Origin: Nitrospina sp.
Lineage (GTDB): Bacteria > Nitrospinota > Nitrospinia > Nitrospinales > VA-1
DNA length: 64,000 nucleotides
NCBI GenBank assembly: GCA_018673915.1
Contig: JABHBK010000047.1
Span: 62,001 to 126,000 of the forward strand
Direction: 5' to 3'
Shown here: positions 16,998-21,532 of the stretch, in pieces
Layout: every line of letters begins with the position of its first letter
How positions within the stretch are numbered: the first letter of the stretch is position 1
Program-made: the position numbers and the translations under genes
Notes under the pieces: model-generated
What the model was told of the DNA's origin: nothing
The model's input: the letters and a program-made list of their open reading frames with translations, nothing else
The model's database searches: none

Positions 16998-17981
16998 CTA
17001 TTTTCCCTGGCGGATGATTTTAGGGTTTGGATCCCCTTCAACCACCAAATGTCCAATGGCACCTTTGGCAACTCTGTAAATGCTATGGTCTACCAGAGCA
17101 TAAGCTCCTGGCACATCGACTTTAAACTCTACGATTGTTGCTCCGGCAGAAGGAACCAGTGTGGTCTGAATGCCCTTGCCGACGGCTCCGCCAAATCCGC
17201 CTTCGTTGTAAACCTTGTCGAAGATTTCCCCAATGATATGAAAGGAAGAAATTCCGTTAGGTCCGATGTTTCCAAAATAGATTCTTACGGTCTCACCGAC
17301 TTTGGCTTTCAAAGCATTAGCGCCGAGCAATCCGCCTTCTTTCCCGTTAAAAACGACATGGGATGCGTGCTCATCAAGGCCCTTCTGGATATCAAATGCC
17401 GCAACGCCATTTTCTGGATCGGAGGCGAAAAACTCACTTTCCATGACATAGTATTCCCGGTCAACGCTTGGAAGTCCGCCTTCGGGTTCGACTAGGACCA
17501 GGCCGTACATACCATTGGAGATGTGATCAACAATGGAACCTGCCGCACAATGGTAGATAAAAAGTCCCGCCGCTTTGGCTTTGAAAGTGAAGACTTTCTC
17601 TTCACCAGGGTCTACTGTTGTGAACGCAGCGCCTCCACCGGGTCCGTTTACTGCATGAATATCTATATTGTGAGGTTGAGTGTTGCCCTTTGCGTTGGAT
17701 AAATGGAATTCAACGCTGTCTCCCACACGAACTCGTGCCATCGGACCGGGAACGGTTCCGCCAAAACTCCAGAAACTATATTTCACATCTGTAGCCAGTT
17801 CCCCAACGTATTCCTTGGCCTGCAAATGAACGACAACGGTGTCTGTTCCACGCTTTACGGCAGGGGGAACATTGGGGGCGGTGGTCAGCTTGGCCGTAAC
17901 TTCAGCCAGAGCGGAAGTTCCGCCAAACCCAACAACCAGGGTAAAGGCAAATAAAATACTCAAACCAAATTTTTTATGCAT
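16998..17981 (-). CDS. nirK: Copper-containing nitrite reductase (NO-forming)
   Basis: 327 residues: signal peptide (about 1-26, ending SALA) and two cupredoxin domains. All expected copper and catalytic residues are visible: type 1 Cu H104, C145, H153, M158; type 2 Cu H109, H144, H299; catalytic Asp107 (PHNIDIH) and His248 (SSFHII). It reduces nitrite to nitric oxide in the periplasm with electrons from a cytochrome or cupredoxin. In nitrite oxidisers of the Nitrospinota and Nitrospirota it is often present with an uncertain physiological role. AAGGAGAG lies 8 nt before the ATG. It is divergent from an Rrf2 regulator that is the likely controller, with a palindrome between them. Confidence 0.94.
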   Translation of the reverse strand: MHKKFGLSILFAFTLVVGFGGTSALAEVTAKLTTAPNVPPAVKRGTDTVVVHLQAKEYVGELATDVKYSFWSFGGTVPGPMARVRVGDSVEFHLSNAKGNTQPHNIDIHAVNGPGGGAAFTTVDPGEEKVFTFKAKAAGLFIYHCAAGSIVDHISNGMYGLVLVEPEGGLPSVDREYYVMESEFFASDPENGVAAFDIQKGLDEHASHVVFNGKEGGLLGANALKAKVGETVRIYFGNIGPNGISSFHIIGEIFDKVYNEGGFGGAVGKGIQTTLVPSAGATIVEFKVDVPGAYALVDHSIYRVAKGAIGHLVVEGDPNPKIIRQGK

Positions 17982-18129
17982 TATTAACTCTCCTTAAAGA
18001 TTGAAAAAGTTTAAACGGTTTTTAAGTTGATCTATTTTTGTGTAAAAAAATGCATTCCCCAGGTTTTTACTGGGGCCTGCTATTGAAAGCCTAAAAACTA
18101 CCTAAATTTATTCAGGTGGTGATATTAAG

Positions 18130-18155
18130 ATAAAAGGATATATATATCTTTTTAT
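18130..18155. promoter_or_regulatory. 26-bp palindrome between nirK and the Rrf2 gene, candidate operator
   Basis: ATAAAAGGATATA...TATATCTTTTTAT is its own reverse complement except for one pair (positions 7 and 20 of the repeat). It lies 65 bp upstream of the Rrf2 start and about 150 bp from nirK. Rrf2 proteins bind as dimers to such AT-rich dyads, so binding by the adjacent regulator is inferred. Confidence 0.6.
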
Positions 18156-18219
18156 ATGTTTTGAGTTTATGTTATGCTAATTTCATTGTCAATATAATTT
18201 TTATATTTTAAGGGGTTCT

Positions 18220-18651
18220 ATGATTTCCCAAACAGCTGAATATGCTTTACGAGCCGTAGTATGCTTGGCGCAAAACCAGGATAAACCCCATACGACAGCG
18301 GAAATTGCTAGTTGGACTAAGGTTCCCGAGCATTATTTGTCTAAGGTTTTGTTGGCACTGGCAAAGCATGAGGTGGTTTTTTCCAAAAAAGGCTTGCATG
18401 GAGGCTATGTGTTGGCACACGCTCCTGAGAATCTTCCTTTGCTAAATGTTATCAATGCGGTGGACCCTATCAAGAATATTAAGAGCTGTCCATTGAAGTT
18501 AAAAACCCATGGCACAAACCTTTGCCCATTGCATAAAAAAGTCAACGAATCGATTGACGTGATGCAAGAGATGTTCAGAACCTCTACCGTAGCTATGATT
18601 TTGAATGAGCCCACAAAAAGTATTCCTCTTTGTGAGGCCATTAAAAATTGA
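18220..18651 (+). CDS. Rrf2-family transcriptional regulator (NsrR/IscR-like)
   Basis: 143 residues, one winged-helix domain. MISQTAEYALRAVVCLA is the family start and the recognition helix region is PEHYLSKVL; KKGLHGGYVLA is the wing. IscR and NsrR carry three closely spaced cysteines for an iron-sulfur cluster. Here C90 (KSCPLK) and C102 (NLCPLH) are present but the middle cysteine is absent, so cluster binding would need another ligand (C15, C138 or His105 are candidates). Divergent from nirK, which suggests control of nitrite/NO metabolism (inference). AGGGG precedes the ATG. Confidence 0.9.
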   Translation: MISQTAEYALRAVVCLAQNQDKPHTTAEIASWTKVPEHYLSKVLLALAKHEVVFSKKGLHGGYVLAHAPENLPLLNVINAVDPIKNIKSCPLKLKTHGTNLCPLHKKVNESIDVMQEMFRTSTVAMILNEPTKSIPLCEAIKN

Positions 18652-19005: not shown

Positions 19006-19419
19006 TCAAACCTTGCTGAATTTGTGAACGTAGAATTTAGCAATATCTTTTATTGATAGCACACCTGTAACAATATGGCTTTCTTTGACAATTAAATGGC
19101 GAATATTTTTTGTCTGCATCTTAAGAAATGCCGCCACCATGGATGACTCAGAATCTATATAAACCAGTTCTTTCGTCATCACCTTAAAAACGGTTGTGCT
19201 CCCGGGATATTCATTTTGAGCCACTACCTTTTTCAGCAAATCCGCCTCAGTAAAAATCCCTACAAAACGTTTTCCCTCGGTAACCAGAATTGAACCCACT
19301 TTTTGTTTTTTCATCCTTTTGCATGCTTCGAATACAGATAAAGTAGCATTAATTTGGATGAGGGGCGGTGTAATAAAATGTTTGACCTTGTCTTTTACCT
19401 CGTCTTTGACCTTGTTCAT
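19006..19419 (-). CDS. CBS-pair protein, copy 1
   Basis: 137 residues forming two CBS motifs (about 15-65 and 80-135): ATLSVFEACKRMKKQKVGSI, VGIFTEADLLKKVV, then MVAAFLKMQTKNIRHLIVKE and TGVLSIKDIAKFYV. Stand-alone CBS pairs bind adenine nucleotides or S-adenosylmethionine and regulate partner proteins. It differs from the second copy at 21119-21532 at only 22 of 137 residues, and the upstream DNA is also duplicated. It is divergent from the pentapeptide-repeat gene. No catalytic domain is present. Confidence 0.92.
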   Translation of the reverse strand: MNKVKDEVKDKVKHFITPPLIQINATLSVFEACKRMKKQKVGSILVTEGKRFVGIFTEADLLKKVVAQNEYPGSTTVFKVMTKELVYIDSESSMVAAFLKMQTKNIRHLIVKESHIVTGVLSIKDIAKFYVHKFSKV

Positions 19420-19659: not shown

Positions 19660-21012
19660 ATGGATAGAGCCGAATTATTGAGATTCAACTTTCGCGGGGC
19701 CAACTTGGCCGGGAAGAACCTTTCCCAATTGAACCTTTCAGGGAAGGATCTGAGCGGGGCAATATTGGCAGGGGCTAATTTTTCAGGTGCAAACTTGACG
19801 GGAGCGGACCTGACCGATTCCAACTTGGACGAAGCTAATTTGAGTGAGGCTGTTTTGAGCCGAACCGTTTTTCGTAAGGCCAGTCTTATAAATTCCTGTT
19901 TGAAGGGGGTGAACTTGGAGGAGGCTAACTTGAGTCTCGCCAATTTAAGCCGGGCCGATATAAGTGATGCCAATCTCCACAAAGCCAAACTGAGTGAAGC
20001 GGTTCTTAAGGGAGCGAACCTTAATCAGAGCTTTTTACAACATGCCAACATGTGCTCAGCGAATTTCGAAGGAGCCAATCTTTCGGGAGCGGATTTGAGC
20101 GGCGCCAATTTGGAACATGCTAACTTGAGCGAGGTCGATCTGCGCAATGTGACCCTAAGCAGAGCCGACCTGCATAACGCCAACCTTAAAGGGGCAAACA
20201 TGAGCGAGGGCATTCTCGATCACGCTTTGCTACGGTGTGCCGATCTCAGTGGCGCTGATCTAACCGAAGCGAACCTGAGTGAAGCCAATTTCAGTCAGGC
20301 GACTCTTTCCGATTCTATTCTCACTAAAAGTAATTTTAGTTATGCTTTTCTGGCTGGAGCCAATTTGAGTGGTGCCAACCTCACCCAGGCGAATTTCGAA
20401 GGAGCGGATTTCTATCATGCGATTATGGTCGGGGTAGATTTGAGTGGGACGGACTTGAGCGGAGTTCATTTGCGACGCGCTGACCTGAGTGACTCCAACC
20501 TAAGTAAAGCCATATTGCTCAAGACCGATCTCCGGGAATGTCAATTGGTCAAAAGTAATCTTAGCAGGGCTCATCTGGTGGAGGCTCATCTAAATAATGC
20601 GAACCTGAATCATGCTGATCTCAGTGGAGCGGATCTGAGCTTGACGGTAATGCGCGGAGCCGACTTGCGTGGGGCAGATTTACTCAAAGCCAATCTCGTG
20701 CGGACTGACCTCAGCGAAGCCAATTTGACCGGGTCACATTTGGGAGGAACAAATCTTCGCGGTGCCAAGCTGAGGGAAGCCATTTTGGTTAATGCAAATT
20801 TAAGTGGTGTCAACGTCAGAATGGATGACCTGTCTGGCACTGATTTTCGAGGAGCCAATCTTCGCCTGATACACAACCTGTCCAGTGAGCAAATCCAATC
20901 GGCCGTTATCGATAAGTATACCCAACTCCCGTCAAGCTTGAAAATAACATGGACCTCCGAAACAAGCTTCATATGCGAGGAAATTGAACAGAAGAGGAAA
21001 GGCTCTGATTGA
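19660..21012 (+). CDS. Long pentapeptide-repeat protein
   Basis: 450 residues, of which about 4-415 are an almost unbroken run of A(N/D)LXX pentapeptides (for example GANLSGADLSGANLEHANLS), roughly 80 repeats, enough for a right-handed quadrilateral beta-helix of about 20 coils. The C-terminal tail SSEQIQSAVIDKYTQLPSSL is the usual cap of this family. No signal peptide or membrane segment, so cytoplasmic. Some pentapeptide proteins mimic DNA and protect gyrase, but most, including long cyanobacterial types, have no known role. Flanked by two duplicated CBS-pair genes on the opposite strand. GAGGG and GGGG lie upstream of the chosen ATG, but the exact start is not certain. Confidence 0.92.
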   Translation: MDRAELLRFNFRGANLAGKNLSQLNLSGKDLSGAILAGANFSGANLTGADLTDSNLDEANLSEAVLSRTVFRKASLINSCLKGVNLEEANLSLANLSRADISDANLHKAKLSEAVLKGANLNQSFLQHANMCSANFEGANLSGADLSGANLEHANLSEVDLRNVTLSRADLHNANLKGANMSEGILDHALLRCADLSGADLTEANLSEANFSQATLSDSILTKSNFSYAFLAGANLSGANLTQANFEGADFYHAIMVGVDLSGTDLSGVHLRRADLSDSNLSKAILLKTDLRECQLVKSNLSRAHLVEAHLNNANLNHADLSGADLSLTVMRGADLRGADLLKANLVRTDLSEANLTGSHLGGTNLRGAKLREAILVNANLSGVNVRMDDLSGTDFRGANLRLIHNLSSEQIQSAVIDKYTQLPSSLKITWTSETSFICEEIEQKRKGSD

Positions 21013-21118: not shown

Positions 21119-21532
21119 TCAAACCTTGCTGAATTTTTTCACGTAAAATTTAGCGACATCTTTTATGGACAGGATGCCGCCAATTTCATTGCTATCTTTG
21201 ACAATTAAATGGCGAATATTTTTTGTCTGCATCTTAAGAAAAGCCGCCACCATAGATGACTCAGAATCTATATAAAGTAGTTCTTTGGTCATCACCTTGA
21301 AAACAGTTGTGCTGCCCGGCAACTCATTTACGGCCACCACCTTCTTTAGTAAATCCGCTTCCGTAAAAATCCCGACATAATTTTTCCCTTCGGAAACCAG
21401 AATAGCGTCCACGTTATATTTTTTCATCCTCTTGCACGCCTCGAATACAGACAAAGTAGCGCTAATTTGGATGGGGGGTGGATGAATAAAATGTTTGACC
21501 TTGTCTTTAACTTCGTCTTTAACCTTGCTCAT
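21119..21532 (-). CDS. CBS-pair protein, copy 2
   Basis: 137 residues, about 84% identical by direct comparison with the product of 19006-19419 and the same length. Both CBS motifs are intact. Differences cluster in the N-terminal motif (RMKKYNVDAILV against RMKKQKVGSILV) and in the segment before the last motif, which are ligand-facing in CBS pairs, so the copies may bind different nucleotides. About 85 nt upstream of the start, including TATATTTGATAAAA and TTTAGAATGAAGG, are also shared with copy 1, so the duplication included the promoter. Confidence 0.92.
   Translation of the reverse strand: MSKVKDEVKDKVKHFIHPPPIQISATLSVFEACKRMKKYNVDAILVSEGKNYVGIFTEADLLKKVVAVNELPGSTTVFKVMTKELLYIDSESSMVAAFLKMQTKNIRHLIVKDSNEIGGILSIKDVAKFYVKKFSKV

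Follow-up and report, generated by a model that had tools for sequence, protein, structure and literature searches.

The locus lies in a 64,000-nucleotide (64-kb) stretch of the genome of a Nitrospina sp. (contig JABHBK010000047.1), hereafter called the window, and consists of a nirK gene and an rrf2 gene in open, divergently transcribed frames separated by 238 bp (Table 1). The nirK product contains the motifs HNIDIH (position 104), IYHC (142), VDHISNGM (151), SSFHIIG (245) and LVDHSIYRV (296), which we take to be the type 1 and type 2 copper ligands together with the catalytic Asp and His. On that assignment NirK retains all copper and catalytic residues, as a first-pass annotation of this DNA had stated. 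The rrf2 gene was the sole Rrf2 gene found in its own genome, the assembly of which is 92% complete. When 30 loci from relatives were compared, nirK was located inside the 1.5 kb flanks of rrf2 in 18, in one of them in fragments. In genome G033 (loci L015 and L040) the nirK adjoining rrf2 is fragmented, and rrf2 and another nirK elsewhere are kept. Further along the window, two similar CBS-domain proteins of 137 residues (19006-19419 and 21119-21532, both on the minus strand) lie on either side of a pentapeptide-repeat protein of 450 residues (19660-21012, plus strand).

Table 1. Genes and predicted regulatory features of the nirK–rrf2 locus (window coordinates)
Feature	Position	Strand	Basis
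nirK, copper nitrite reductase, predicted target gene	16998..17981	-	TIGR02376, 300 bits (cut-off 296.3)
Predicted operator dyad, common to both divergent promoters	18130..18155	.	12/13 arm pairs, conserved in relatives
Predicted operator core GGATATATATATCT, form RGAYN6RTCY	18136..18149	.	Recurs ahead of rrf2 in relatives
Second, downstream predicted operator (GATGTCAAGATC in relatives), degenerate in this species	18185..18196	.	Upstream-region alignment
rrf2 leader, purine-rich AAGGGG ahead of ATG	18210..18219	+	Sequence; putative ribosome binding
rrf2, CHCH-type Rrf2 regulator (E7, C90, H97, C102, H105)	18220..18651	+	PF02082, 88.8 bits

Membership of the Rrf2 superfamily was evident from PF02082 (88.8 bits against a cut-off of 30) and TIGR00738 (98.1 against 73.3). 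None of the equivalog models accepted the protein, the nearest being the SUF regulator model (65.2 bits, cut-off 110.65); the IscR model gave 45.3 bits (cut-off 207.55), the NsrR model NF008240 gave 31.4 bits (cut-off 182), and scores were far below the cut-offs for RirA and CymR. NF008240 matched 63 of 63 alignment rows, and its cut-off comparison refers to the window protein only. An AF2 monomer model had a pLDDT of 91.5 and matched the Rrf2 fold among known structures. The closest solved structure was RsrR by profile (69 bits) and by Foldseek, and IscR by VIA-align (best Z 16.8). Other regulators belonging, like the window protein, to the Rrf2 family are SifR, RisR and RirA, the last two being cluster proteins of Fe-S and iron control (PMC11138216), and CymR, described as having no cluster (PMC9338935).

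The first-pass annotation described an Rrf2 protein with C90 and C102 and no third cysteine, and this was confirmed; position 96, where the middle Cys of NsrR and IscR would be expected, is Thr. What it overlooked is the substitution itself: an invariant His97 stands in for the missing cysteine, and the family keeps His105 and Glu7 without exception as well. The motif C90-P-L-X4-H97-X4-C102-X2-H105 (C-X6-H-X4-C-X2-H, hereafter CHCH) was present in all 80 loci of a genome_contigs scan, in which the best 80 of 305 relatives found were kept, and in 29 of the 30 loci from relatives, the miss being an incomplete match. Among the same best 80 of 305, position 96 was S, T, A, G or Q and position 97 was always His; the unusual ligand set suggested earlier is therefore supported by conservation. 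One locus, L049, has an extra, unconserved Cys at position 95. Since the three-Cys proteins L177 and L191 read C-X6-C-X5-C-X2-H, His97 stands at the place of the middle Cys. E7 and R11 were invariant across the 63-row alignment; as one of the retrieval patterns (MISQT[AS]EY) contains E7, its invariance in the genome scan is partly built in, while the Cys and His positions occur in none of the patterns. In our own alignment E7 and R11 fall on Asp8 and Arg12 of ScNsrR, with the numbering shifted by one residue. In ScNsrR, Asp8 ligates the [4Fe-4S] cluster of the partner subunit and is salt-bridged to Arg12 (PMC5411485).

NsrR has been described with three Cys in proteobacteria, Bacillus and Streptomyces (PMC1274295, PMC4432287). 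The window protein resembles it in the Rrf2 fold, in the type of regulon, and in carrying an N-terminal acid with an Arg one turn on, as in ScNsrR, but differs in having two cluster-type Cys (C90 and C102) instead of three, in the invariant His97 and His105, and in its placement on a separate branch. With IscR it shares the fold and the C-terminal Cys-X2-His (C104/H107 in E. coli IscR), but the full IscR ligand set of C92, C98, C104 and H107 is not present, as the middle Cys is absent. The likeness to RsrR, a redox sensor of Streptomyces venezuelae, lies in two Cys per monomer and a Glu in helix 1, with E7 aligned to RsrR Glu8. The Cys spacing of 11 here nevertheless differs from that of RsrR, which we presume from its numbering to be about 19 residues, and the equivalent of His33 is Thr; position 33 was T in 76, S in 3 and A in 1 of the best 80 of 305 relatives, and never His, so that the RsrR set of two Cys, His33 and partner Glu8 is not reproduced. 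The [2Fe-2S] cluster of RsrR is ligated by two Cys, a His and a Glu (PMC11138216), a precedent for mixed ligation.

These residues would most likely hold an iron-sulfur cluster bound through C90, C102, H97 and/or H105 and the E7 of the partner subunit, in a site of the three-Cys NsrR/IscR type whose middle Cys may have become His. A less likely arrangement, to which we give perhaps one chance in five, is that the same nitric oxide (NO) regulon is controlled through one metal ion, Zn(II) or Fe(II), bound by C90, H97, C102 and H105, with NO acting on the thiolates or the iron. Two Cys and two His, invariant within 16 residues, would suffice for such a tetrahedral site with no ligand from the partner; on the other hand, E7 and R11, the counterparts of the ScNsrR partner-ligand pair, are invariant too, and RsrR, the closest solved protein by profile, carries a [2Fe-2S] cluster (PMC11138216).

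CHCH proteins among the best 80 of 305 relatives came from Nitrospinota, Planctomycetota, Melainabacteria, Armatimonadota and Sumerlaeota. In a tree of 48 rows, from which L169, L178, L184, L191 and one row of fewer than 110 residues were omitted, all 31 CHCH rows fell on one side of a branch with support 98/95. E. coli NsrR joined a planctomycete three-Cys protein (L167) outside this branch, although with long branches, E. coli IscR was placed elsewhere, apart from the CHCH branch, and L177 was the neighbour of the CHCH branch. In an earlier tree, built on 65 rows, two label changes were required for the CHCH grouping, since the short, fragmentary rows L169 and L178, on a branch 7.08 long, fell inside it; L191 grouped with L177 in that tree. 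One planctomycete genome, G067, encodes both an NsrR-like and a CHCH protein. A Nitrospinota genome, G060, encodes an RsrR-like Rrf2 protein (L173) with a His near the place of His33, together with two CHCH proteins. No separate CHCH-type protein was listed in the structure libraries, an absence that proves nothing, and a literature search that covered few subscription journals and was judged by titles and the opening of abstracts returned no paper on a CHCH Rrf2 branch and no report of an NO regulator of Nitrospinota. A term search of the text of a Nitrospinota genome comparison found nirK mentioned and Rrf2 not (PMC10839748), and nsrR has been named in Hydrogenedentota and Sumerlaeota MAGs (PMC10866078). 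The CHCH proteins form a widespread branch of Rrf2 regulators that, within the literature covered, had apparently not been described.

Genes of NO metabolism, named by Pfam, were found within about 4 kb of the regulator in 58 of the 80 loci (best 80 of 305). The counts per 80 were RIC/YtfE 25, NirK 17, protoglobin 17, NorB 11, NnrS/DUF1858 8 and truncated globin (trHbIII) 5; the other 22 loci had none of these named genes in the flank, several of the flanks being short. Two CHCH paralogues found via Pfam and missed by the retrieval patterns (L190 and L192) are divergent to NorB and to a truncated globin. Within 1.5 kb, L177 and L191 had no match to these NO genes, and the RsrR-like L173 had none by eye. 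Linkage to unrelated genes, which the first-pass annotation regarded as evidence against its proposal, was not seen overall; away from nirK the regulator often adjoins truncated globin, RIC, protoglobin or NorB. This set corresponds to the NsrR regulon, which includes nirK, RIC/dnrN, norB, nnrS and haem NO-scavengers (PMC1274295), although flavohaemoglobin Hmp was not recognised among the recurrent neighbours. The recurrent neighbour families listed for the flanks also contained no isc or suf cluster, which may be a further difference from IscR. A gene that looks NifU/Nfu-like by eye is close to RIC at one operator place and close to rrf2 in L026/L027. In a Melainabacteria locus (L060:2949-3965) a RIC fused to an N-terminal rubredoxin lies just upstream of rrf2 in the same direction. 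Nine of the 80 loci (L105:1935-3266 and eight others) have, close to the regulator, a protein of some 440 residues that matches no Pfam family; the L056 copy has a CXXCH motif and is possibly a cytochrome of the NO response.

The first-pass annotation reported a 26-bp dyad with one mismatched pair between the two genes, and this dyad was found as described, with 12 of 13 arm pairs and no spacer. Nowhere else in the 64-kb window do 13-bp arms pair without a gap and with no more than one mismatch, and a search with AAARGATANNNNTATCTTTT at up to two mismatches returned no other window match. When the 238 bp between the genes were dinucleotide-shuffled 5000 times, 5 of the shuffles gave a comparable dyad. 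The earlier statement that it differs from the NsrR box was also correct: the intergenic region had no match to the consensus gATGyAT-N5-ATrCATc (PMC1274295) at three or fewer mismatches, as compared with the core GAT-N6-ATC of the dyad, and the 8 box matches across the window stood against a chance mean of 8.32. A promoter scan gave chance-level matches only (2 against 1.7 expected).

In relatives the upstream regions were conserved mainly at the dyad and at a second place closer to the rrf2 start. Many relatives carry a second operator copy about 55 bp nearer rrf2, L021 and L022 carry three copies spaced about 50-55 bp apart, and the rrf2 ATG of many relatives has a site 29-48 bp ahead of it. 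Of 29 Nitrospinota loci, 27 had the core RGAYN6RTCY no more than 150 bp from the rrf2 start (shuffle mean 0.94, largest 6), the misses being L018 and L029, with the incomplete match L030 not counted. The core was also present in 33 of 59 distant loci (shuffle mean 1.97, largest 6), and missing within this distance in 26. Motif discovery in 58 distant loci, without Nitrospinaceae input, gave the palindrome TGGAynTnnAnrTCCA with the same core, the flanks being AT-rich in Nitrospina and TGGA/TCCA in planctomycetes. Since the core recurs in relatives and was recovered independently, the regulator and its operator seem to have been kept together across phyla. A 20-bp operator model, GATAAAAAGATNTTTTTATC, offset 4 bp from the dyad, was dropped because the distant loci and the shared core point to the dyad centre at 18142.5. 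Matches of the de novo motif in Melainabacteria, at about -115 to -140, apparently lie inside the RIC frame by reading and were taken as artefacts.

A search of the organism's own genome with a 20-bp pattern at up to three mismatches gave six matches, against one for the reversed control, and the best non-local match, with two mismatches, was on the same contig at a distance of about 67 kb, where it precedes a RIC gene by 67 nt. A degenerate pattern, searched in 61 genomes with one mismatch allowed, identified 51 distinct places, overlapping two-strand matches being counted once by hand; the reversed control gave 12 uncollapsed matches. Thirty of the 51 were at rrf2 (15), RIC (9), truncated globin (5) or unlinked nirK (1) promoters, six at a LysM/apt junction and 15 elsewhere, 12 of which were inspected and had no NO gene. 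The six apt-gene matches (AAAAGAAAAC[C/T]TTATC and one variant) were judged spurious and not counted as operators, because they run into, or directly adjoin, the 3' end of a LysM-type gene (gene names by eye). At one place (L151, G008:C291:7370-10390) the operator is kept before a RIC frame that contains only residues 1-19 and 218-234, which in this close relative reflects either a large deletion within the gene or a join made in assembly. At another (L160, G036:C343:1-2770) a near-perfect operator-like site at 1253-1274 lies 58 nt before a carbonic anhydrase gene.

With a weight matrix trained on rrf2 upstream sites only, a site was found before unlinked RIC in 14 of 14 genomes with the regulator (lowest score 18.4) and in none of six regulator-free genomes (highest score 6.9), an association with P 2.6e-5 that is post hoc and based on phylogenetically dependent rows. 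Another ten RIC genes of regulator-bearing genomes adjoin rrf2 across a common intergenic region, are internal to an operon or have a doubtful start, and six of these ten scored 10 or less. For nirK, a score of at least 14 was reached by 17 of 23 genes in regulator-bearing genomes and by none of seven in regulator-free genomes; as 15 of these 17 lie across a shared intergenic region from rrf2, only G038 and G017 are separate tests. The check proposed in the first-pass annotation, to look for the dyad upstream of nirK in related genomes, therefore had a divided outcome: it was found upstream in relatives that keep the rrf2/nirK pair, while for unlinked nirK a site was present in G039 and G017 (15.2), weak in G029 and absent in G025 and G021. 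The site was also absent before some nirK genes located downstream in an operon headed by the site. Judging from the matrix scores, nirK seems to be a core target in Nitrospina proper, and RIC to be targeted more constantly.

We regard the dyad as very probably a genuine operator, as it recurs before rrf2 and, genome-wide, before unlinked RIC. That it is a chance palindrome in an accidental neighbourhood is extremely improbable: the region is indeed AT-rich, but the shuffles, the core in 27 of 29 Nitrospinota loci and the sites before RIC all contradict this explanation. If the dyad and the regulator do belong together, the protein might still be an activator or a dual regulator, which we regard as unlikely; activation would also fit a divergent promoter and tandem sites spaced by about 55 bp, but NsrR and RsrR repress from similar positions (PMC5015018, PMC9338935), and the site 29-48 bp before the rrf2 ATG in many relatives also argues for repression. 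Equally doubtful is a sensor of redox or oxidative stress, as in RsrR, or of iron-sulfur status, as in IscR, for which the NO genes would be secondary targets. RsrR is the best match by profile and Foldseek, and mixed-ligand RsrR clusters sense redox (PMC11138216). Against this, His33 of RsrR is replaced by Thr, Ser or Ala, the Cys spacing differs, the targets are NO genes in several phyla, and RIC in the organism's own genome carries the operator; the lack of an isc or suf cluster among the recurrent neighbours listed may speak against iron-sulfur status.

We consider it probable that the window protein is an NsrR-like, NO-responsive repressor of an NO regulon, with a predicted mixed Cys/His metal site completed by the partner Glu7, probably an iron-sulfur cluster. 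The nirK–rrf2 pair would then be one node of this regulon, and Rrf2 a winged-helix repressor acting as a dimer. As long as its metal site is intact, Rrf2 would occupy the dyad centred on GGATATATATATCT and keep nirK and rrf2 off, in many relatives occupying the second copy also. It would also repress RIC/YtfE elsewhere in the genome, and in relatives its targets would further include truncated globin, protoglobin or NorB. NO formed from nitrite would attack the metal site, and Rrf2 would leave the DNA, switching on the NO-handling genes and nirK. Release by NO is proposed for the mixed Cys/His/Glu' cluster by analogy with NsrR, in which NO destroys the cluster and the DNA is released (PMC9338935). 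That NO should raise expression of the NO producer nirK would not be unusual, since NsrR controls nirK/aniA in Nitrosomonas and Neisseria (PMC1274295, PMC4432287). The switch beside nirK most likely senses NO, in line with the nitrite/NO-responsive role first suggested for it, although NO may not be what it senses directly, as a regulator responding to nitrite or to redox state would be expected among the same neighbouring genes. For the branch as a whole, we lean slightly towards an old, multi-phylum group of NO sensors with a centre of two Cys, one or two His and a partner Glu, distinct from three-Cys NsrR.

Among the known nitrite oxidisers of the marine water column, Nitrospinota are the most abundant. 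The majority of them possess nirK, and the analysed genomes are without norBC (PMC10839748), which raises the question of how these bacteria handle their own NO. With a regulator, an operator and a regulon defined, NO handling in Nitrospinota becomes testable. For the Rrf2 field, the question is whether a Cys-to-His exchange keeps NO sensing while altering cluster type, redox coupling or oxygen stability, and for annotators the motif C-X6-H-X4-C-X2-H could name many 'Rrf2 family' proteins more precisely. If our reading is true, Nitrospinota, together with many Planctomycetota, Armatimonadota and Melainabacteria, would use a CHCH Rrf2 protein as their general NO switch, one that has an operator code of its own and a regulon of RIC, protoglobin or truncated globin, NorB and NirK.
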